NCBI RefSeq assembly: GCF_003325355.1
Contig: NZ_CP030850.1
Location: 496,001-560,000, forward strand
Source of the DNA: Runella rosea
GTDB lineage: Bacteria > Bacteroidota > Bacteroidia > Cytophagales > Spirosomataceae
DNA length: 64,000 nucleotides
Direction: 5' to 3'
The translations under genes were made by a program, and so were the position numbers. Shown piece by piece: positions 2,572 to 41,096 of this stretch. Positions within the stretch are counted from its first letter, which is position 1. Each line of letters opens with the position of its first letter. Below the pieces are notes generated by a model. The model did no database searches, was not told the origin of the DNA, and was given only the letters and a program-made list of their open reading frames with translations.

Positions 2572-4386
2572 ATGCAAAGCATCCGCAACATTGCCATCAT
2601 TGCGCACGTTGACCACGGTAAAACCACATTGGTGGACAAGTTCATCCACTATTCAAAACTGTTTAGAGAGAATCAACAGTTTGACGATCTCATTTTGGAC
2701 AACAATGACCTCGAACGTGAACGAGGAATTACAATTGTCTCTAAAAACGTATCAGTACGCTACAAAGACGTAAAAATCAACATTATTGATACCCCAGGCC
2801 ACTCCGACTTTGGAGGAGAGGTAGAGCGTGTACTTAAAATGGCTGACGGTGTCGTCATTCTGGTAGATGCCTTTGAAGGGCCTATGCCGCAGACCCGTTT
2901 TGTGTTAGGTAAAGCCTTACAGTTAGGATTGAAAGTAGTATTGGTGGTCAATAAAGTAGATAAACCAAACTGCCGCCCCGACGAAGTACACGAGGCGGTA
3001 TTTGACCTGATGTTTAACCTCGAAGCCAACGACGTACAACTTGATTTTCCTACCGTTTTCGGCTCGTCGAAACAAGGATGGATGGGGCCTGATTGGCAAA
3101 AACCAACCACCGATATTTCGTATTTATTGGACGTAATCGTTGAACATATCCCACCAGCTCCCAATAACGAAGGCGATCCGCAAATGCAGATTACTTCATT
3201 GGATTACAGTTCTTTTGTAGGACGTATTGCCATCGGTCGCGTACACCGTGGTACATTCAAAGAAGGTGCTCAATTGGGTCTTTGCAAGTCAGACGGCACG
3301 GTAAAACGCGCTCGTGTCAAAGAATTGCAGGTATTTGAAGGCTTGGGCAGACAAAAAGTAACGGAAGTTTCATCGGGTGATATTTGTGCCGTAACGGGTT
3401 TGGAAGATTTCGAAATTGGTGATACCATCACGCTTTTCGAAAATCCTGAACCGCTACCGCGTATTTCGGTAGACGAGCCAACGATGAACATGTTGTTTAC
3501 CATCAATAACTCACCGTTTTTTGGCAAAGAAGGCAAATTTGTGACTTCTCGCCACTTGCGTGAGCGTTTGTTTAAAGAAATGGAAAAAAACCTTGCCTTA
3601 CGCGTTGAATCAATGGGTAGCGAGGATAAATTTATGGTGTTCGGCCGTGGTATTCTTCACTTGTCGGTGTTGATTGAAACCATGCGTCGCGAAGGTTACG
3701 AATTGCAGGTAGGTCAGCCACAGGTGATTTTCAAAGAAGGCGACAAAGGCGAACGCCTTGAGCCAATCGAAATTCTCGTGGTAGATGTTCCTGAAGAATC
3801 AGCTGGTAAAGTAATTGAATTGGTTACCCAACGTAAAGGTGACCTACTCGTGATGGAGCCACGCGGCGATTTGCAACACTTGGAGTTCAATATTCCTTCA
3901 CGCGGTTTGATTGGGTTGCGTTCCAACGTCTTGACTGCCACGCAGGGTGAAGCAGTACTGTCGCACCGTTTTAAGGCCTACGAGCCCCACAAAGGCACGA
4001 TTCCGGGACGTATCAACGGTTCAATTATTTCTAAAGGAACTGGAGTAGCTACCCCTTACGCCTTAGACCGTTTGCAAGAGCGTGGAAGATTCTTTGTGGA
4101 TCCAGGTGAAGAATTATACATGGGAATGGTAATCGGTGAGCATAGCCGCCCAGGAGATATTGTAGTAAACTTGCAGGAAACCAAGAAGTTGACCAACATG
4201 CGGGCTTCAGGTACGGACGACAACGTGCGTATTGCGCCTAAAATCAACTTTTCGTTGGAAGAATCAATGGAATATATCCAAAAGGATGAATATTTGGAAG
4301 TAACGCCGCAAACGCTTCGTATTCGGAAAATATACTTAGACGAAAACGAACGCAAGCGCAATTCAAAAGAAATGGAAATGGCGTAA
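2572..4386 (+). CDS. typA: Ribosome-associated GTPase TypA/BipA
   Basis: A 604-residue translational GTPase, the usual length for TypA/BipA. The GTP-binding motifs are complete: G1 AHVDHGKTT near residues 10-18, the switch-I segment RERGITI, G3 DTPGHSDFGGEVERV and G4 NKVD. Elongation factor-like domains II, III and V follow, then the BipA-specific C-terminal region (RGLIGLRSNVLTAT, FKAYEPHKG). TypA binds 70S ribosomes and affects ribosome assembly and stress adaptation; this is family knowledge. It is a single gene with its own upstream region, followed by an inverted repeat and a convergent small gene. Confidence 0.97.
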   Translation: MQSIRNIAIIAHVDHGKTTLVDKFIHYSKLFRENQQFDDLILDNNDLERERGITIVSKNVSVRYKDVKINIIDTPGHSDFGGEVERVLKMADGVVILVDAFEGPMPQTRFVLGKALQLGLKVVLVVNKVDKPNCRPDEVHEAVFDLMFNLEANDVQLDFPTVFGSSKQGWMGPDWQKPTTDISYLLDVIVEHIPPAPNNEGDPQMQITSLDYSSFVGRIAIGRVHRGTFKEGAQLGLCKSDGTVKRARVKELQVFEGLGRQKVTEVSSGDICAVTGLEDFEIGDTITLFENPEPLPRISVDEPTMNMLFTINNSPFFGKEGKFVTSRHLRERLFKEMEKNLALRVESMGSEDKFMVFGRGILHLSVLIETMRREGYELQVGQPQVIFKEGDKGERLEPIEILVVDVPEESAGKVIELVTQRKGDLLVMEPRGDLQHLEFNIPSRGLIGLRSNVLTATQGEAVLSHRFKAYEPHKGTIPGRINGSIISKGTGVATPYALDRLQERGRFFVDPGEELYMGMVIGEHSRPGDIVVNLQETKKLTNMRASGTDDNVRIAPKINFSLEESMEYIQKDEYLEVTPQTLRIRKIYLDENERKRNSKEMEMA

Positions 4387-31323: not shown

Positions 31324-32859
31324 ATGAAAAAAAAGACTTACTCAATCTTAACCATCCTCTTTGTTGGACTCGCATCGGTATTTTTAGCCTTCAAACCGAC
31401 CGTGCAGAAAAATAAAATGCCCAATATCGTCTACATCTTAGCCGATGACATGGGGTATGGCGATGTGTCGATTTACAATCCTCAAGGGAAAATTTCGACG
31501 CCTAACATTGATAAACTAGCCATGCAGGGAATGCGGTTTACGGATGCTCATTCGCCTTCATCGGTCTGTACACCAACGCGTTATGCATTGATGACGGGCC
31601 GCTACCCATGGCGGAGCCGCTTGCCCGTGGGCGTATTGCGTGGGTACAGTCGAACGTTGATTGAAGACGACCGCCCCACAGTGGCATCTTTGCTCAAAAG
31701 CCAAGGTTATCAAACTGGGGTGGTGGGAAAATGGCATTTGGGATTGGATTGGGAAGTGCCACAAGGCAAGCAAGAATTGCTAAAAACAGAAAATTATGGC
31801 ATCAAAACGGAGATGAATCCTGAAGACATTGATTTCACGAAAAAGCCAACGGGAGGCCCTCAGAGCGTAGGATTTGATTATTCTTATATTTTGCCAGCTT
31901 CTCTGGATATGCCGCCGTATTGTTATTTGGAAAACCAACAATTGACCGAACAACCCACGGCGTATACCAAAGGAAATAAACTGGAATCGGGCTATACAGG
32001 TCCCTTTTGGCGTGAAGGAAAAATGTCGCCCTCGTTTGATTTTCATGGAGTGTTACCTGAATTTGTTACAAAAGCTAATGCATTTTTGAAAAAGCAAACC
32101 AAAGAAAAACCTTTCTTCCTCTATATTCCGCTGGCTGCTCCGCACACGCCTTGGGTGCCTACCAAAAATTATGTAGGCAAATCAAAGGCGGGAGAATACG
32201 GCGATTTTGTGCAACAAGTGGATGCGGCAGTAGGCGAAGTATTAAAAACCTTAGAAGCATCAGGGCTTTCTGAAAATACCCTTGTTATTTTTACCAGTGA
32301 CAATGGCCCATACTGGCGGCCCAATTTTACAGAACAATTTGGCCATGCCGCCGCTGGGCCGTTTAGAGGGATGAAAGGTGATGCCTTTGAAGGTGGGCAT
32401 CGCATTCCGTTCATCGTTCGTTGGCCGCATAAAGTAAAACCCAATACCGTTAGCAATGCCACCACGACCTTGGCAAATTTGCTTTCCACCTGTGCGGAAA
32501 TTGTGGGAACAAAAGACGCTAAATACAACACCGAAGACAGCTACAGTATTTTGCCTGTGCTGTTGGGGAAAACGAAGCAGGTTCCCAATCAACCTGCGGT
32601 GGTTCATAGTTCGTCCATCGGATACTTTGCCATTCGCAAAGGCAACTGGAAATTGATTGAGGGCCTTGGTTCAGGCGGTTTTACTGAGCCAAAGGAAATA
32701 AAACCAAAAGTAGGTGAAGCCGCAGGACAGCTTTATAACCTAGCGGATGATGTTTCGGAAAAAAACAATTTGTACGAACAAAACCCTGAAAAAGTAAGGG
32801 AACTTGCGCAGTTGTTGACGGCAATCAGGCAAAGTAAAAAGAAGTTGGTTTTGAACTGA
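31324..32859 (+). CDS. Exported S1-family sulfatase
   Basis: 511 residues from ATG 31324; a TTG at 31309 is upstream. The N-terminal hydrophobic segment is a signal. The metal-binding start MPNIVYILADDMGYGD is followed by the sulfatase signature Cys82-T-P-T-R (SSVCTPTRYALMTGRYP). Cys82 is the residue converted to formylglycine. FTSDNGPY and KWHLGLDW are further conserved blocks. It should remove sulfate esters from sugars, so the PUL substrate is probably sulfated. No formylglycine-generating enzyme is in this window. It is the last plus-strand gene of the PUL, and meets the M43 gene tail to tail 12 bases later. Confidence 0.94.
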   Translation: MKKKTYSILTILFVGLASVFLAFKPTVQKNKMPNIVYILADDMGYGDVSIYNPQGKISTPNIDKLAMQGMRFTDAHSPSSVCTPTRYALMTGRYPWRSRLPVGVLRGYSRTLIEDDRPTVASLLKSQGYQTGVVGKWHLGLDWEVPQGKQELLKTENYGIKTEMNPEDIDFTKKPTGGPQSVGFDYSYILPASLDMPPYCYLENQQLTEQPTAYTKGNKLESGYTGPFWREGKMSPSFDFHGVLPEFVTKANAFLKKQTKEKPFFLYIPLAAPHTPWVPTKNYVGKSKAGEYGDFVQQVDAAVGEVLKTLEASGLSENTLVIFTSDNGPYWRPNFTEQFGHAAAGPFRGMKGDAFEGGHRIPFIVRWPHKVKPNTVSNATTTLANLLSTCAEIVGTKDAKYNTEDSYSILPVLLGKTKQVPNQPAVVHSSSIGYFAIRKGNWKLIEGLGSGGFTEPKEIKPKVGEAAGQLYNLADDVSEKNNLYEQNPEKVRELAQLLTAIRQSKKKLVLN

Positions 32860-32871
32860 TTCTGTGCCTTT

Positions 32872-35595
32872 TTATTGACATCCTGTAATTTTTGCTTCAA
32901 AAACGGTATTGGGGCCACTTTGCCAAAAGCCACCCGCGGCAGGAGAGGTGATGGTGATTGATTTTCCTGCGGTATAGGAGATATTTCCGGAAGTATATTG
33001 GATCGTCCCCGTTGTTGTTATGGTTTCCGAGGCTTGATAGGGCGCGGGGAGGGAGGCATGGACGACCAGCGTTTGGGGACAAGGGAACTGCGTTGGTAAA
33101 ACCGTGATCAGGGCGCTGCCGGCGGCAGTGCCAGCCCCGCATTGCGTATTGCTTACCTGAGTGATCGTGTAAGTTGTCGTTGTTGTGGGAGAAACCGTAA
33201 TCGTAAAAGGATTATTCATGCTGTTTGTAAACTGTTGACCGGTCGAAAGGGTAAGCTGATACGGAAGAGTTCCAGCGGTCAATGAAACACTCAAATTGGC
33301 CGATTGACTGGCATATATACTTGCAGCACCTGACAAATTCACCTGCACTTTGGGATTGATGGTCACTGCGACGGGCCCTGATTCATTGATACACCCATTC
33401 TGTGAAATTTCCACCCGGTAATTCTCTGTTTGAGCAGCGGCCAACATCTGACTAGTCGCATTGGGCAGCGTGCCAGTACTGTTTTTCCACGTATAGGTGT
33501 AGCCTTCGCCGGTAGCGGCAGTTAATGAGACAGTTGTCGGAGCACAAACCACCGCATTGCCGGAAACCGTGATAGACGCCTCAGGCTTCGAATATACCCG
33601 GATACTTTCGCTGTTGGTAGATACGCTGATGTCTGTTGAGATGATCCTCAGTCGGTAGTAGCTGCCCGGGGCTAACAGGGGAGGGAGTGAAATAGTCAAA
33701 GGACTGCCAGTCCCGCTGCCGACTTCTGTACCTGCCGCAAAATTTCCGTATGTGTCAGAAAGCTCGGCTTTAAAGGTGTTATTTCCTGAAAATGAGCCTG
33801 AGGTTGTAAAGCTTGCCTGATAGTTCCCGCCAGCACACAGGGGGGGGAATGTCGATAAAAGCTGGATTTGGGGTAAGGAACTTCCGTTGCTGATCGTAAC
33901 GGTATAGTCTTCGGTTTCACCTACGGTGTAGCGACTGCAGGCATTGGTTACACCTCCGCTTGCAAAGTCAGCGGTTCTGACCCGCATCCTGGTAGCGCCG
34001 TTGAGGAGCGTTGCAGGTAAAGTCACCAAAACGGATTTTTCAGTTGTGCCGATCATTTCGCCGGATGTAGTGGATTTGGCAATCATTTCCGGGGTTTCAA
34101 ACGTGCCGTTTTGATTGGCATCGATCCAGATAGCGTAGTGTAGCGAAGTTGACCCCTTTAAGGTGAAAGTATAGCTTTGTCCGGCTACCAAAGCAGCTGG
34201 GGGAAGTGCCGTAAAATCGGAGAAATTATTGGCATTACAGGGAGACGGGAAATCCGATGTGTTATCGAGTGCCGTGCCGTTGATTTTTACTTTGGTGATG
34301 AATGAACTTACCAAAGCGCATACTTGGTTGGTGTAGACGGGAAAACAATAACCGGTTTGATTCTGAGGAACAGTGATGGAAACGACTCCGGAAAAGTCGG
34401 TGGAGTTGGAGGCGCGGATTCGGTAATGATAGGTTCTTCCCGCACTGAATTCTGAATCAATATAGGTGTTGGTACCGGGGCCGACGCCTCCCAAACAAAT
34501 GTACGGCTCGTTGGTTGATTCGGCTCTTTCGACAAAATACCCTGTTTCAGTGATAGAATTATCGCCCCATTGTAGAATGATTCCGTTGGTGCCCACAACT
34601 GCCGTTGGCAAACCGGGCAAGGGTTGATTGGTGGGTGCGCAGTCGAGGGTGTATTGGTTGGAAGGGTCGGTTCGGGCGATGTAACCGATTTTCATACGTT
34701 CATACTGGCCGGGAGTCAATTGTCCATGTTGATTAAGACCGCATATTCTGCTCCAATACGACATTACATTTGTGATGCTTGGTTGATAAGGGACGCCGTT
34801 GGCATCGATGGGCGTTGCCAAGGCATAGGTACATGCATTATTGACGGTGTTTCTCTGCGTGGAGCTTAGTTGTTCATAAGGATCGGCGGGAGTATCACAC
34901 ACCCGATCGCCTTTGGTAGAGCAGTTGGCTCCTAAGCCTCTTGTAACTACTTCCCGATTTGACACAGTGGCATGATTGCTGTCCTGAAAAGTATGGTATA
35001 GACCGAAATAATGGCCGAATTCGTGCAGCAGCGTTTTATTTACTGTGTTTGTAATGGCTAAATAATTCACAAAGACATGGTTAAAACCTGGACTTGGCTG
35101 TGTGGCAAATCCTTCAGCACCAATGATGGTACTGCTTATGTACAGATTGATGGCATTGCTGACGTTGTAGGCTGATAAAATACCCGTAAATGTGTTTGCA
35201 TTGTTGTAATTAATGGTGGTATTATAGGTAGTGCTGTTGATAAAATGCGGAGAGTCGGCGGTGGGATTGGTGCCGCCGATAGAACCGCTCCCGCCGAAAT
35301 AAAACTGTAATCCTACGGGTAAAAAGGCCCTGTTCAATTCGGCAAATTTGGCATTGAGGGCAATGAGGTCAACCCCGCCGCTACCGTCATCGTTGCGAAT
35401 AATGTGCACCTTTACCGGGACATAGTTGAGGGGTACGGCACCTGCCCGGGTATTTTTACTTTTCGCGTGCTTATGGATGAATTTGCCAAAGAAAAATTCA
35501 TCCGCATCCGTGGGAGAGGGTGTGCCGCAGTTTTGTCCAAATAAGGGGATACAGCTTACTATAAGCCAAAAAAGAGAATACAATTGTTTTTTCAT
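32872..35595 (-). CDS. Secreted M43 (pappalysin-like) metalloprotease with Fn3, GEVED and adhesive C-terminal domains
   Basis: A 907-residue exported protein. The signal is followed by an M43 catalytic domain with zinc site H191-E-F-G-H195-YFGLY-H201 and a Met-turn NVMSYW. Next come a fibronectin type III domain (ILQWGDNSITETGYFVERAE), a GEVED domain (YAIWIDANQNGTFETPEM, MRVRTADF, ACSRYTVGETEDYTV), and two Ig-like segments. The C-terminal stretch (YQASETITTTGTIQYTSGNI, NTVFEAKITGCQ) looks like a 3-coathanger-stack domain, often at the end of Bacteroidota surface proteins. I see no standard T9SS type A tail. Its ATG overlaps the stop of the S74 gene by one base (TAATG), so translation is coupled. 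Confidence 0.9.
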   Translation of the reverse strand: MKKQLYSLFWLIVSCIPLFGQNCGTPSPTDADEFFFGKFIHKHAKSKNTRAGAVPLNYVPVKVHIIRNDDGSGGVDLIALNAKFAELNRAFLPVGLQFYFGGSGSIGGTNPTADSPHFINSTTYNTTINYNNANTFTGILSAYNVSNAINLYISSTIIGAEGFATQPSPGFNHVFVNYLAITNTVNKTLLHEFGHYFGLYHTFQDSNHATVSNREVVTRGLGANCSTKGDRVCDTPADPYEQLSSTQRNTVNNACTYALATPIDANGVPYQPSITNVMSYWSRICGLNQHGQLTPGQYERMKIGYIARTDPSNQYTLDCAPTNQPLPGLPTAVVGTNGIILQWGDNSITETGYFVERAESTNEPYICLGGVGPGTNTYIDSEFSAGRTYHYRIRASNSTDFSGVVSITVPQNQTGYCFPVYTNQVCALVSSFITKVKINGTALDNTSDFPSPCNANNFSDFTALPPAALVAGQSYTFTLKGSTSLHYAIWIDANQNGTFETPEMIAKSTTSGEMIGTTEKSVLVTLPATLLNGATRMRVRTADFASGGVTNACSRYTVGETEDYTVTISNGSSLPQIQLLSTFPPLCAGGNYQASFTTSGSFSGNNTFKAELSDTYGNFAAGTEVGSGTGSPLTISLPPLLAPGSYYRLRIISTDISVSTNSESIRVYSKPEASITVSGNAVVCAPTTVSLTAATGEGYTYTWKNSTGTLPNATSQMLAAAQTENYRVEISQNGCINESGPVAVTINPKVQVNLSGAASIYASQSANLSVSLTAGTLPYQLTLSTGQQFTNSMNNPFTITVSPTTTTTYTITQVSNTQCGAGTAAGSALITVLPTQFPCPQTLVVHASLPAPYQASETITTTGTIQYTSGNISYTAGKSITITSPAAGGFWQSGPNTVFEAKITGCQ

Positions 35596-36764
35596 TAGTT
35601 TACCGCCCGAAGACTTGTCCCTTTTTCTTTTAGTATTTTAAAAATTCCTTCCATAGAAGCCTCAAGGTTTTTATGCTGATTTTGGAGCGTTTTTACCTGC
35701 TCAGTCAATTCTTTGATAGCTTCCACCAAAATGGGAGTTAATTGGATATAATTGATTGATTTGTACCCCTGTGCATCGGTATCGACCATTTCGGGGAATA
35801 TTTTTTCTATTTCCTGGGCGATAAATCCGGTTTGTTTTCTATCTGTAAAATGACGGTCAGGAAATTCATTTTTCCGCCACAGATAGGTCACACCCTGAAT
35901 GCCGGAGAGTTGAGCCAAGGCATTTTGCAATGGAGCGATGTCTTTTTTTAGGCGGCGATCAGAAGTAAGCACAACGCCGGCTGCTCTTACGCTGCCGGTG
36001 GCATTGATATCGCCGCCTACTTTGAGTTTCCATGTCGGGTTGGTGGCCAGCGCACCAATGGGCATATTAATTCCTACGACATCATTGGCAAAATCACCTC
36101 CGATGAGCGGCGTGGTGGTGCCGGAGTTTTCGATATAAAGTCGATTGGAACCGGTTTCGGAAGAACCTGCCTGATAACCGATGGCAATATTGTTGAAACC
36201 TGTCTTGCAGTTTGCCAAAGAAAAACCTCCGACGGCGACATTATTTTCTGGATAATTGGAGGGGCTTACTCCTCCGAAAGAAGTGCTGCCCATTGCTCCT
36301 GCACCAATACAAACATTATATCCTCCACCGTAGATATTCATGCCAGCACCTGTGCCGATGCCAATATTCTGCCAGCCCTCAAACTCTTCCCCCAAGGCCC
36401 TGAAACCTAAGGCTGTGTTGCCGTTTCCGCCCGTATTCTTTGACAAAGCTTCTGCGCCGACAGCGGTATTTTCGACATTATCGGTAAGTTTCAGGGCATT
36501 GTAGCCCACCGCCGTATTGTCTGAATTGCCGGTTACTTTATTCAGAGAACTATAGCCGACGGCGGTATTTCGCTGTCCTGTTGTATTCAGTTCGAGAACT
36601 TTCTCTCCAATGGCAGTATTATACAGTCCGGTATTGATGGGGCGATAACTTCTAAGTCCATCAGGTGTGATGGTAATATTCGATGTGTTATCCTGAATGG
36701 TCATGTTGGTCTGTCCCCAAGTCAGGGCAGGAAATAATAGGAATACTGGAAATAGCTTTCTCAT
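35595..36764 (-). CDS. S74 self-cleaving chaperone (tail-fibre type) repeat protein
   Basis: A 389-residue exported protein (signal MRKLFPVFLLFPALTWGQ). Residues about 40-220 are roughly nine repeats of about 17 residues of the form NTAVGxxAL (NTAVGYSSLNKVTGNSD, NTAVGYNALKLTDNVE), as in the head of YadA-like trimeric adhesins. The C-terminal 120 residues are an S74 intramolecular chaperone; the cleavage Ser268 and the Arg/Lys of the motif are present in SDRRLKKDI, and a coiled-coil end (EAIKELTEQVKTLQNQHKNL) supports trimerisation. By family knowledge the chaperone cuts itself off after folding a trimeric fibre. It lies 9 bases after the orphan LytTR gene and overlaps the M43 gene. Confidence 0.88.
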   Translation of the reverse strand: MRKLFPVFLLFPALTWGQTNMTIQDNTSNITITPDGLRSYRPINTGLYNTAIGEKVLELNTTGQRNTAVGYSSLNKVTGNSDNTAVGYNALKLTDNVENTAVGAEALSKNTGGNGNTALGFRALGEEFEGWQNIGIGTGAGMNIYGGGYNVCIGAGAMGSTSFGGVSPSNYPENNVAVGGFSLANCKTGFNNIAIGYQAGSSETGSNRLYIENSGTTTPLIGGDFANDVVGINMPIGALATNPTWKLKVGGDINATGSVRAAGVVLTSDRRLKKDIAPLQNALAQLSGIQGVTYLWRKNEFPDRHFTDRKQTGFIAQEIEKIFPEMVDTDAQGYKSINYIQLTPILVEAIKELTEQVKTLQNQHKNLEASMEGIFKILKEKGTSLRAVN

Positions 36765-36773
36765 GCTGAATAA

Positions 36774-37148
36774 TTATAAAGTTTTTAACTGTTTAATAAC
36801 TTTTTTCACTTTTGAGGTTCGACGTCTTGAGCAGGTGTGCCATTGACCATTGAGGAGTCGGATGGCATAACCTTCGTTTTTACAGCTTTCAGTGATGTAG
36901 GACAGATTGGCAATGATACTTTTGTTGATGCGGATAAAGCCATGTTTGGCAAAGGGTGATTCGAAAATGCCGATGGTTTTGGAAGTAATAACGCGGGAGC
37001 CGTCAGTTAAATAAGCGAATGTATAATTGCGGGCACTTTCTAAAAATACGATTTCTGAAATATTGACTGGACGTTTGCCGTCAGAGGTCTGTATCATCAG
37101 ATTTGGCAACCCAAGGGTGGAAAGCGGAAACGAGTAGGTGTTCATCAT
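36774..37148 (-). CDS. Orphan LytTR DNA-binding regulator
   Basis: About 124 residues from the ATG at 37148 (37145 also possible). The frame is open to 37214, but the promoter at 37212-37219 makes that start unlikely. The protein is only a LytTR domain: VNISEIVFLESARNYTFAYL, then DGSRVITSKTIGIFESPF and GFIRINKSIIANLSYI. It has no receiver domain, so it is probably controlled by its own level or by partners. LytTR proteins bind direct repeats upstream of promoters, and a matching pair is found just upstream at 37248-37283. It is the first gene of the run LytTR, S74 protein, M43 protease. Confidence 0.88.
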   Translation of the reverse strand: MMNTYSFPLSTLGLPNLMIQTSDGKRPVNISEIVFLESARNYTFAYLTDGSRVITSKTIGIFESPFAKHGFIRINKSIIANLSYITESCKNEGYAIRLLNGQWHTCSRRRTSKVKKVIKQLKTL

Positions 37149-37211
37149 TCTTAGTCTGTTTAGTGAATGGATATTTTCGCTTACTGTTTGGCGTTGATAT
37201 GGTTGATGCAC

Positions 37212-37219
37212 CAAACTTA
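37212..37219 (-). promoter_or_regulatory. Promoter of the LytTR-S74-M43 operon
   Basis: The minus strand reads TAAGTTTG, an exact TAnnTTTG match. A -33-like TTTAG lies 18 bases upstream on that strand. Transcription would start near 37205, leaving about 57 bases of leader before the ATG at 37148. Confidence 0.5.
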
Positions 37220-37247
37220 TAAGAATACCCTAAGCCACTAAACCCTT

Positions 37248-37283
37248 ATTGAGTAAGTGTGTGCAGTGATTGAGTAAGTGTGT
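37248..37283 (-). promoter_or_regulatory. Candidate LytTR operator: two 15-bp direct repeats 21 bp apart
   Basis: ATTGAGTAAGTGTGT occurs at 37248-37262 and again, with no mismatch, at 37269-37283, a spacing of exactly 21 bp (two helical turns). On the minus strand each reads ACACACTTACTCAAT. LytTR proteins bind pairs of 9-bp direct repeats separated by 12-13 bp, which gives a 21-22 bp period. The pair lies about 28 bp upstream of the TAAGTTTG element, the place for an activator site. The gene run behind it starts with a LytTR gene, and a LytTR response regulator is just upstream. Confidence 0.55.
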
Positions 37284-37304
37284 AGAAAAAGGCAGGAAGT
37301 GCGT

Positions 37305-38081
37305 TTAGGCGAAACGAGCTAAAAAGTCATGTTTTTTACGGAAGGATACCTCAACGGTAGAGCCGTCAGACATTTCCAAATAGCCGCCTTTGCCTTTAAA
37401 GTAGCGGCGAATATGTTTGAGATTTACAATGTGGGAATGGTGTACCCGGCAAAATAAGTCTTCTGATAACATCTCCTCAATATCATTGAGGGTCCGGGAA
37501 ACCAGAAATTTACGGTTATTTGTTAGCGTCAAATGGGTGTAATTACTGTCGCTGCGGCAGGAGATTACTTCTTCGTCATGAATAAAAATCAGCCCGTCGA
37601 CGGTGGGCAAGGCCATGATGTATTGGTCGCGGGGTGCTCCGTTGATATAGCTATTCAAAATCATATTTTGCCCTTCCAGATGTTTTGTAACTGTACCTAA
37701 AGGGGGGAGCTTTTTTACAGCGGCTACCAAATCATCAATGTCCAGGGGTTTGAGCAGGTAGTCGAGTGCAGAGCGTTTGAGGGCTTTCAGGGCGTAGTGC
37801 TCGTAGGCTGTAACAAAAATAACGCTGAATGAAAGATGGGGCAGTCGATCCAGTACTTTGAACCCTGAGCCGTCAGGTAGTTCAATGTCTAAAAATACTA
37901 CATCCGGTTGCAGCGAACTGATGGTCGCCACGGCTGTTTCCAAGGTATCGGCAAGACCGACGATTTCAATCTGCGGGCAATATTTGCCCAGCATGACTTC
38001 CAATAATTTACGACTTCGGTCTTCGTCTTCAACAATGACAGCTCGGTATACTTCACGTTGGTCAGGCAAGGCAGTATTCAC
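37305..38081 (-). CDS. LytTR-family response regulator
   Basis: A 258-residue two-component response regulator. The receiver domain has acidic residues in IVEDEDRSRKL, the phospho-acceptor Asp65 in DVVFLDIELPDGSGF, Thr/Lys in FVTAYEHYALKA and YLLKPLDIDDLV. The C-terminal LytTR domain (about 155-258) has SNYTHLTLTNNRKFLVSRTL and CRVHHSHIVNLKHIRRYFKG. It begins 3 bases after the sensor kinase gene ends, so they form a pair. The candidate LytTR operator is 22 bases beyond its stop codon, so its likely nearest target is the LytTR-S74-M43 run. Confidence 0.95.
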   Translation of the reverse strand: MNTALPDQREVYRAVIVEDEDRSRKLLEVMLGKYCPQIEIVGLADTLETAVATISSLQPDVVFLDIELPDGSGFKVLDRLPHLSFSVIFVTAYEHYALKALKRSALDYLLKPLDIDDLVAAVKKLPPLGTVTKHLEGQNMILNSYINGAPRDQYIMALPTVDGLIFIHDEEVISCRSDSNYTHLTLTNNRKFLVSRTLNDIEEMLSEDLFCRVHHSHIVNLKHIRRYFKGKGGYLEMSDGSTVEVSFRKKHDFLARFA

Positions 38082-38084
38082 AGG

Positions 38085-41000
38085 TTAACCAGTATATAGC
38101 TTCATCAAAACACGCGTCCCCCGCAATGAAGGATCGAGATGCTTCTTATCAAAGACGTCAATGCTGTGGCTTTCGTCACTCAACTGATTGATTAATTTTA
38201 TTCTTTTTTTGACGATGTCCAAACCATGAGAAGCATGTTCTTTTGCGAGGCCCGTTTTGGATTTTTGAGAGAACTCCAAACCTACCCCGTTGTCGTCGAT
38301 GGTGCAATAAAGATACTTCTCGGCAAACTCAAAGTCTATTTTAAGCAGCCCCTCCGCTTGCATCCGCCCAAGTTGCCCATGTCTGATCGCGTTTTCCACA
38401 AAAGGCTGTAACAGAAGAGAAGGAACTTCTATTTCATCGGCTTTCACATTTGGATGGATATTTACCTCAACTTTGAAAGCTTGGAGATACCGTAATTGTT
38501 CTAATTTGATATACAGCATCAGGAAGTCGATTTCATCGGTCAAAGAGATCGTGCTGCGTTTAGTAAAATCCAATGATTTACGAATCAACTTGGCAAATTG
38601 TGAAAGATATCGATGGGCCTGTTCAGCCTCGTTGTTTATAAGAAACTCCTGAATTGCATTGAGACAATTAAAAATAAAATGAGGGTTCATCTGCGCCCGA
38701 AATGCCTGTTTTTCCAACTCATTGAATTCTTCATTGAATGCTCTTGCTTTACGCTCCCGACGATAATAATACATAAACAGAACGGTTAGTAAAGCAAAAC
38801 AAAAAGAAGTAATGAGGGAGCCCTGTATGATGGGATTGAGATACCAAGGCATCGTCACCTTGAAATTTAAGGATGTTTTTCCTAAGAACAGCCCTCGTTC
38901 TTTCGAAATAGCTTCCAGCTCAAACTGATAGCTGCCCGGCAGTAACTTTGTAAAGACAGCGGTATGCTCATCGGTGGTACTCCATTGACTGTAAGACCCA
39001 TAGGAGCCAAACATATTCCCCGAGAGTCGGAAGCGATACCGTATATTGCCGGCCCACTGACGGCTGACGGCATAAAACTTAAACCTGATTTCATCTTTGC
39101 TTTGTAGGGCTATCAGGGGATTGATACGTACAAGGCTGTCGTCGCTCCAAACGTTGGTAATGTGTACCGGTATCGGCAGTGTATGACTGCTCGCTATGTC
39201 TTTTAAAAAAGTGACCCCGCCCGTTGTTGCCACCCAGATAGAGTCATGTTTTACAAATACATCATTGACAATATTAGTTGCCAATCCGTTGCTTGTATTA
39301 TAGATCGTAATGTGCCATTTTTTTTGTGAGATATTTTCGATGCTTATTTTATTCAATCCATTGATTGTGCTTACCCACAGCGTTTTATTTTCGCTTATAA
39401 AGAATGACTGAACAAAATTGTTGGATAGGCCCTCTTCGACGGAGAGGTTGTAAAGTTGACGGTTGCTGTAGAAAAAAATGCCCGCAACGGTTGTTCCGAT
39501 GACCAAACTACCGTCGTGCAAAGTAGCTAACGCGGTGATTCTGTATTTGAAATTTTGCAAAATAGACGGCAATGTATCCGATATTTGTGACCTGAAAACG
39601 CTGTTTTTAAGGGTTGTTTCTATTTTGCGGCGGCTGAATGTCATCAGCCCATTGGTTTGTCCTATCCAGAGACGTTTTTCAAGTGAATCATAAGCAATGG
39701 CCGTTGTACGCTCCAAAAACAGTTTTCTTTTATCAATAAGATTAGATAACAAATAGTGGCATTTGGATTCAGTAAAGGGAGGTTTTATTTCATTTTCTGC
39801 CAGTTGATTTTCTGTAGAGATATAAGCTCCATGATGCGTGGCCAGGAAAATCAATGAATCAGAGAAGGCAATATCTTTAATATTACCGTTGATAAAGTAC
39901 GAGGTATATATTCGGCCATTATAGCGATAAAGGATGTTTTCATACGACATCCAGGCAGCCCTCGGCCTGATACGAATATTTTTGATACGCGACGTAAGGG
40001 GTTTAACACTATACGATTTTTCGAAATCAATACTTTTTCGCGGAATATTATCCACCACAATCTTTATATTTCCGCGATTGAGGCCAATCAATAACTCACG
40101 GTTGAGCTTCCCTACGCTTAAAGGCTCCGTATTGTAGATACCGATGTTGGGGATTTGATAGGCCGTCTGGGGAGACATGCAATAAAGCCCATCGTTGTAG
40201 GTGGATATCCAGATGTTTCCTTCATTGTCTGAAGCGGTGTAAGTAATGCTTCGCCCCGGCAATTCGTTGGAGACATACGACAGTTTCTCGCCAGTTATTT
40301 TAAATAAAAACAACCCACGGTCGGAAGTGCCGACACAGATCGTTTTGGGATGTAAATTGATAAAAATAGTGTTTTTATAAGGGAACCCGGGCACGTTTAT
40401 GGTGTTGGTTTTGCCCGAATCATAAAAACAAATGGCAGAATTAGAAGGATAAATGTATTTAAGGGAATCAACATGGCAGATGATACGGGGGCGGTTTTTG
40501 CTGAAACTTTCGGGCAATGAAAAAAGTAGTTTTCTACTGAAAAGTTCTGTACAATGATTGCCGTCACTGATAAATACCTGATGGGGGGCAGAAACGTGAA
40601 CAATATTTTTATAGGTATATGCTCTCCCTTTGATCGCCGTAAGTTTTCGTGAAGAAAGGTGAAAGCGAAAGATATCCGCCCTTTGTTTTACAATCCAGAC
40701 ATTGTCAAAATCGTCCTCATAGATTTGCAGCACGGATTGGAAAGATGTACCGAAAAAATCTTTTCCGTTTTGGAATGTAGAGCCGTCGTAGAGCAAAACA
40801 TCACCTGAGAAAGGGATAAACCATATTCTGCCCTGTTTGCCGATATAAATATCAATAAATTCAACATCGTTCACTAACCCCTTGAGCGAAAAAGTTTCGA
40901 AGCGGTGACCGTCAAATCTACAAATACCGTTGCTTGTGGCCAACCATAAAAAGCCCCGCTCATCTTTCACTACTTTGTAAACTGTGTTGCTGGGAAGTCC

Positions 41001-41096
41001 GTCGGCAGTAGTATAATGCGGGAAATAGCGTTCCTGTCCATAGGCAACGCTGAAAAAAATCAAAATTATTGTACAAAGAATGATTTGTCTTATCAT
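38085..41096 (-). CDS. Beta-propeller sensor histidine kinase (LytS-type)
   Basis: A 1003-residue membrane sensor. A signal peptide is followed by a large periplasmic region of two-component-regulator propeller repeats (GLPSNTVYKVVKDERGFLWL, SDNEGNIWISTYNDGLYC, LWVSTINGLNKIS) and a Y_Y_Y domain (YRFRLSGNMFGSYGSYSQWS). One transmembrane helix near residues 765-790 (FCFALLTVLFMYYYRRERK) leads to a short His_kinase domain with the phospho-His at His806 (AQMNPHFIFNCLNAIQEF) and an ATP-binding part (PFVENAIRHG, DDNGVGL). The propeller type is usually used to sense glycans or other ligands in the periplasm. It is paired with the response regulator 3 bases downstream. Confidence 0.95.
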   Translation of the reverse strand: MIRQIILCTIILIFFSVAYGQERYFPHYTTADGLPSNTVYKVVKDERGFLWLATSNGICRFDGHRFETFSLKGLVNDVEFIDIYIGKQGRIWFIPFSGDVLLYDGSTFQNGKDFFGTSFQSVLQIYEDDFDNVWIVKQRADIFRFHLSSRKLTAIKGRAYTYKNIVHVSAPHQVFISDGNHCTELFSRKLLFSLPESFSKNRPRIICHVDSLKYIYPSNSAICFYDSGKTNTINVPGFPYKNTIFINLHPKTICVGTSDRGLFLFKITGEKLSYVSNELPGRSITYTASDNEGNIWISTYNDGLYCMSPQTAYQIPNIGIYNTEPLSVGKLNRELLIGLNRGNIKIVVDNIPRKSIDFEKSYSVKPLTSRIKNIRIRPRAAWMSYENILYRYNGRIYTSYFINGNIKDIAFSDSLIFLATHHGAYISTENQLAENEIKPPFTESKCHYLLSNLIDKRKLFLERTTAIAYDSLEKRLWIGQTNGLMTFSRRKIETTLKNSVFRSQISDTLPSILQNFKYRITALATLHDGSLVIGTTVAGIFFYSNRQLYNLSVEEGLSNNFVQSFFISENKTLWVSTINGLNKISIENISQKKWHITIYNTSNGLATNIVNDVFVKHDSIWVATTGGVTFLKDIASSHTLPIPVHITNVWSDDSLVRINPLIALQSKDEIRFKFYAVSRQWAGNIRYRFRLSGNMFGSYGSYSQWSTTDEHTAVFTKLLPGSYQFELEAISKERGLFLGKTSLNFKVTMPWYLNPIIQGSLITSFCFALLTVLFMYYYRRERKARAFNEEFNELEKQAFRAQMNPHFIFNCLNAIQEFLINNEAEQAHRYLSQFAKLIRKSLDFTKRSTISLTDEIDFLMLYIKLEQLRYLQAFKVEVNIHPNVKADEIEVPSLLLQPFVENAIRHGQLGRMQAEGLLKIDFEFAEKYLYCTIDDNGVGLEFSQKSKTGLAKEHASHGLDIVKKRIKLINQLSDESHSIDVFDKKHLDPSLRGTRVLMKLYTG

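Follow-up and report, generated by a model that had tools for sequence, protein, structure and literature searches.

Which protein reads a pair of identical repeats lying between two LytTR genes of Runella rosea, and what does it switch on? The repeats belong to a run of minus-strand genes on the 64,000-nucleotide stretch that we analysed (the window), in the order sensor kinase, LytTR response regulator, repeats, stand-alone LytTR, Peptidase_S74 and Peptidase_M43. By open frames, 3 bp separate the kinase from the response regulator and 9 bp the LytTR from the S74 gene, and the S74 and M43 genes overlap by one base, so that the repeats, which start 21 bp past the response-regulator stop, occupy the sole long gap of the run. 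An earlier note on this DNA had described an operon opening with an orphan LytTR gene followed by S74 and M43 genes, with a LytTR response regulator and its propeller sensor just upstream, and the domain searches agree on every gene. The sensor histidine kinase (38085-41096) has Reg_prop and His_kinase matches over cutoff and a Y_Y_Y match below it, and in the response regulator (37305-38081) both Response_reg (PF00072) and LytTR (PF04397) score above cutoff. The best NCBIfam match of the latter is BtsR (YehT) of E. coli, at 102.1 bits; this is far below the NF008677 equivalog cutoff of 246, and we therefore do not file the protein as BtsR. Its structure-search matches (the best 60 of 203) cover the receiver part. 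The stand-alone LytTR gene (36774-37151; PF04397, E 3.2e-14) has named relatives in Runella aurantiaca and a Runella MAG, the start of its relatives aligns to its second ATG, at 37148, and a structure search returned one weak LytTR relative (3d6w, E 0.0013). Behind it come a Peptidase_S74 (chaperone of endosialidase) domain protein (35595-36764) and a Peptidase_M43/GEVED protein (32872-35595) whose match to a C-terminal GCX_COOH domain falls below cutoff; by the look of their starts, both appear to be secreted.

The two copies of ATTGAGTAAGTGTGT occupy 37248-37262 and 37269-37283, which bears out the offset of 21 bp claimed for them, and repeat and conservation analysis delimits the putative operator to 37248-37283 on the minus strand. 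Each copy contains the half-site CACTTACTCA, the promoter-proximal one at 37250-37259 and the distal one at 37271-37280, and a third, degenerate half-site, CACTTCCTGC, which the earlier note does not mention, lies another 21 bp upstream of the distal one (37292-37301). Half-sites of 10 nt in direct orientation with an 11-nt spacer fit the published architecture of LytTR sites, namely two direct or inverted repeats of 9-11 nt with a spacer of 11-13 nt (PMC4847170, excerpt). The operator of YpdB in the E. coli yhjX promoter (YpdA/YpdB system) also has two 10-bp direct repeats, GGCATTTCAT, placed 11 bp apart in the oligonucleotide used for SPR, which is the same 21-bp period as in Runella (PMC4847170, excerpt). 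The half-site sequences differ, however, and the sole target named in that excerpt is yhjX, not a stand-alone LytTR operon behind the regulator. Across the whole window, no exact 15-mer direct repeat with a spacing of 15-60 bp exists besides the Runella pair, and no such repeat occurred in 100 first-order Markov sequences of window length. The absence of further exact copies from the window, as first reported, also stands; allowing up to 3 mismatches adds single copies at 31332 (2 mismatches) and 13045 (3), which are near chance, since the total of four matches compares with 1.73 expected. In the 7.16-Mb genome the 36-bp pair is likewise a single occurrence, with no second pair at up to 3 mismatches; a search for additional exact copies that would define a regulon found none.

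A search of 13 Runella genomes found the exact core pair in four and not in the other nine. The same four have the response regulator at 92-100% identity, the next-best response regulator in the family reaching at most 46% among the matches listed. With up to 3 mismatches, the core pair gave 16 pattern matches in the 13 genomes against 7 for the reversed control (manual count). When the four locus-carrying genomes are aligned, all 20 columns of the two cores, read on the operon strand, are invariant, compared with 64 of the 139 other intergenic columns (hypergeometric p 8.5e-7), and the two longest invariant runs of the gap alignment are the two copies. The most distant of the four, G011, is identical to the window at 77 of these 139 columns. 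In the third half-site, CACT and TG of its ten bases are kept in all four genomes, and G011 has CACTATTTGT at this place. Conservation is confined to the 10-bp core of either copy: the 36-bp pair is absent from 58 other genomes searched, and the earlier note's expectation of the same repeats in related genomes held for the cores (4/4) and failed for the full 15-mers (0/58).

Downstream of the pair, a promoter element had been proposed, and the gap does hold one: a -7 box, TAAGTTTG, at 37212-37219 on the minus strand, which begins 30 bp past the proximal half-site and follows the consensus TAnnTTTG. On the same strand, 19 bp upstream of it, stands TTTA (37239-37242; TTTG in G011), which we take to fill the -33 role. 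A -7-type box exactly 30 bp past the proximal half-site recurs in 12 of 13 genomes, four from Runella and nine from a second genus, g49, which places the operator upstream of a predicted target-gene promoter: the Runella box is TAnnTTTG in 4/4 genomes, the g49 box is TAnnTTGY in 8/9, and the ninth has TAATATTG there. The 120 bp read from each of the 13 genomes contain no further copy of either motif, and at the same 30-bp distance G094, a tenth genome of g49, has TAAATTGC when read by eye. TAnnTTTG is the main sigma factor consensus in a flavobacterium and TAnnTTGY a second flavobacterium motif that occupies the same positions, -12 to -5 (PMC9723704, excerpt). From the position of the -7 box, transcription would start at about 37207, which would put the centre of the pair near -58, the proximal half-site at about -43 to -52 and the distal one at about -64 to -73. 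AgrA has direct repeats upstream of promoters P2 and P3, near -60 (PMC4227749, excerpt). The Runella pair resembles these in lying upstream of a promoter, at about -58 by the predicted start, and differs in that the gene downstream encodes a second LytTR protein. Host phylum and promoter type differ too. In front of the sensor gene, a stretch of 240 bp holds no pair and single 3-mismatch half-sites only, and thus gives no indication of self-regulation of the sensor operon by way of this element. Transcription of the genes behind the repeats may also come from read-through out of the sensor operon.

The second genus came to light when 26 loci of response-regulator homologues were scanned for 21-bp repeats. 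Three had them, and two of these are g49 loci with CACTTACCGA twice at 21 bp; the third, L122, was set aside for its unlike half-site. A pattern scan of 222 family genomes with up to one mismatch returned 21 matches, 13 of which have a LytTR response regulator on one side and a stand-alone LytTR gene on the other. These 13 are the four Runella genomes and nine g49 genomes, and the operator is thus conserved in every Runella genome that keeps the regulator (4/4), and nine of the 11 g49 genomes searched have a similar one. The backward pattern, our reversed control, gave 38 matches in the same 222 genomes (manual count from the table), which makes the position of the matches informative and their number not. 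The g49 half-sites depart from CACTTACCGA at two bases at most, and the repeats stand out from diverging outer flanks. Of the two remaining g49 genomes, G094 and G152, the first was inspected, and its half-sites at the same place show 2 and 1 mismatches. Could the pair nevertheless be a chance or unrelated local repeat, such as a duplication scar or an RNA element? Short two-copy repeats are generally common, and the full 15-mers have not been conserved. This explanation is already contradicted by the Markov sequences, by the cores being the longest invariant stretches of the region and by a similar pair at the same place and the same 30-bp spacing in a second genus, and we consider it highly improbable. 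Period, position, core conservation in relatives and fixed promoter-box spacing all support the reading as a LytTR operator first put forward in the earlier note, and on these sequence features the pair is very probably an operator of this kind.

Which of the two neighbouring LytTR proteins would bind it is a separate question, on which the divergence of the proteins is informative. Between G011 and the window, the response regulator is 93% identical, the kinase 86% and the M43 protein 94%, the stand-alone LytTR protein 56% and the S74 protein 42% over 210 residues. Within Runella, the operator core is the same throughout and the response regulator holds at 92-95% identity, whereas the identity of the stand-alone protein drops as low as 56%. 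The response regulator is thereby favoured as the binder, although the operator adjoins its well-conserved gene and may in part be sheltered by it. Between Runella and g49, identity is 39-41% for the response regulators; for the stand-alone proteins it is 29-31% in eight of the nine g49 copies and 36% over 67 residues in the ninth. In a tree of response regulators both genera fall within one 44-row group (support 100/99), which does not resolve whether their proteins are sisters. A search of genomes of the order for the g49 stand-alone LytTR gave no match among the 20 listed of 194, none of them from g49, and therefore carries no weight. The conserved LytTR motif FhRhHRS has been tied to DNA contact (PMC4227749, excerpt). 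Its counterparts in the response regulators of the two genera, FCRVHHS and FFRIHHS, both end in HHS, and those in the stand-alone proteins, FIRINKS and FVRPHRS, end in NKS and HRS.

A different assignment would have the stand-alone LytTR protein bind the pair and autoregulate its own operon, with the upstream sensor pair as a mere neighbour. In 13/13 genomes the site does precede a stand-alone LytTR gene. Elsewhere in this genome, the best match to it (C1:5842565, with 2 mismatches) has two stand-alone LytTR genes at a distance of 2-3 kb, and the product of one of these ranks among the two best paralogues of the window protein within the genome, which speaks for the stand-alone protein. A further locus, L135, has a 22-bp-period pair, AATCTTTRCCCTACT (3755-3791), directly before a stand-alone LytTR gene, which is followed by a Response_reg/GerE gene. 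The same protein has, however, diverged to the extent given above while the half-sites stayed identical at 10/10 bases in G011 and mostly at 8/10 in g49, the response regulators being 93% and 39-41% identical there, and its FIRINKS lacks the His of the motif linked to DNA binding (PMC4227749, excerpt). We regard autoregulation by the stand-alone protein as unlikely. The response regulator is probably the protein that binds.

The promoter geometry bears on what binding would do. The pair might be a repressor site, or the two LytTR proteins might use it in turn, the response regulator activating and the stand-alone protein then displacing it or closing the promoter. One operator flanked by two LytTR proteins in two genera is compatible with such an exchange, and the third, degenerate half-site would leave room for a second occupant. 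The position of the pair upstream of the -33 box, centred at about -58, instead fits activation, as AgrA sites also lie near -60 (PMC4227749, excerpt), and repression or alternation seems rather improbable to us. We therefore propose that the sensor kinase would phosphorylate the response regulator, that two regulator molecules would bind both half-sites on one helix face, at about -47 and -68, and that they would bring RNA polymerase to the TTTA-N19-TAAGTTTG promoter, turning on the operon of the stand-alone LytTR, S74 and M43 proteins. Binding, phosphorylation and activation rather than repression are all conditional in this scheme; judged from sequence comparison, the element is likely an activator operator of this operon, with the response regulator as its binder.

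Is this arrangement peculiar to one locus of a genome rich in such proteins? The genome has 74 LytTR matches, 23 of which count as stand-alone because their open frame does not exceed 156 aa (among the 23, one has an internal stop). In 266 intergenic regions at LytTR loci, with the window locus left out, duplicates removed and limits that are rough because genes were called as simple open frames, repeats matching at 12 of 13 positions occurred at a 21-bp offset in 8 regions, against a mean of 0.25 at other offsets. Offsets of 21 or 22 together gave 11/266 regions versus 4/434 background regions (Fisher p 0.0055). In the background, offset 21 was not outstanding (3 regions, against a mean of 0.66 and a largest count of 5 at other offsets), and at a looser threshold it was raised together with offsets 16, 22 and 24. 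Half-sites vary between LytTR loci of this genome, and LytTR sites are described as differing in sequence among systems (PMC4847170, excerpt). Upstream of 20 other stand-alone LytTR genes we found no CACTTACTCA-like pair at 21 bp, and only scattered half-site matches with 1-2 mismatches. The spacing to a -7 box was compared in 13 rows representing 12 places, one being counted twice. Promoter spacing like that of the window was found at one of the 11 other 21/22-bp repeat places at LytTR loci: measured from the centre of the copy, it is 35.0 bp in the window and 35.5 bp at L165, in agreement. L221 has boxes at 26 and 41, and the remaining places have none.

Several observations on these loci are worth recording in their own right. 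At L132 (1707-1744; C1:5842556-5842593), GTTCAAAATGAGTAA occurs twice as a 21-bp pair that precedes a lipoprotein-like gene, with two stand-alone LytTR genes following after 2-3 kb. Its orientation to the next gene is the reverse of that of the window's pair. Several stand-alone LytTR genes (on C1, C2 and C6; L128-L148) lie within a few kb of large surface-type proteins, with S74 in L137, M43 in L145, G8 in L139 and CHU_C in L128, and five are at most 3 kb from GerE-type regulators (L133, L135, L137, L138 and L142). L146 (C1:25000-37000) and L148 (C1:6783000-6791000) share the same genes, including a stand-alone LytTR, near opposite ends of contig C1, which reflects either a duplication or an artefact of the assembly.

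What follows the operator is less constant than the operator itself. In G011 the LytTR and S74 genes show divergence or replacement, whereas the sensor, the response regulator and the far-end M43 protein remain 86-94% identical. The run from the operator to the M43 gene in this genome (L253, 6310-15234) is longer and different, with several extra proteins that have secretion-like starts, and the flanking sensor, regulator and M43 genes are conserved around it. In another genome, G012, the M43 protein (L254, 7212-8149) matches window residues 9-97 and 683-905 only, nearly adjacent to each other, and looks like the product of a large internal deletion that removed the M43 domain (residues 148-265). 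In g49, the one kinase scanned (L124) was without a propeller match, and the gene after the stand-alone LytTR has, in seven of nine loci, the same opening as an Aldolase_II gene (assigned by Pfam at one g49 locus). No S74 or M43 gene was found behind the g49 stand-alone LytTR in the stretches read, so that the surface proteins are outside the g49 arrangement there.

The earlier note had also suggested a circuit from sensor and response regulator to the orphan LytTR gene and on to surface proteins, possibly with autoregulation, and the two-genus comparison supports its first step. The second step, from stand-alone LytTR to surface proteins, is hypothetical, as is the autoregulation. Beyond the first step, we tentatively put forward, at somewhat less than even likelihood, a portable two-tier relay in which sensor and response regulator would drive a stand-alone LytTR protein as a second control layer. 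The link would be a 21-bp operator at a distance of 30 bp to the -7 box, and an exchangeable surface-protein cassette would be coupled to the second layer in Runella but not in the second genus. The LytTR regulatory system of streptococci pairs a LytTR regulator with a membrane inhibitor; here the neighbours of the stand-alone LytTR gene are S74 and M43 proteins. The kind of operator is already known, and what is new is the layout of sensor, regulator, site and regulator, recurring in another genus. In the open-licence literature searched, as far as result listings and the openings of abstracts show, we did not find such a relay layout, and the titles listed included none on LytTR operators in Bacteroidota; no paper there combined Runella with LytTR, or LytTR with the chaperone of endosialidase. 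The importance of the system follows from the abundance of LytTR domains in this genome. Since the operator is defined by its sequence, has a candidate regulator and a constant spacing to the promoter, and is matched by relatives in another genus, it offers a concrete and cheap start for mapping LytTR regulons in Bacteroidota, and an entry point for asking what role stand-alone LytTR proteins play.
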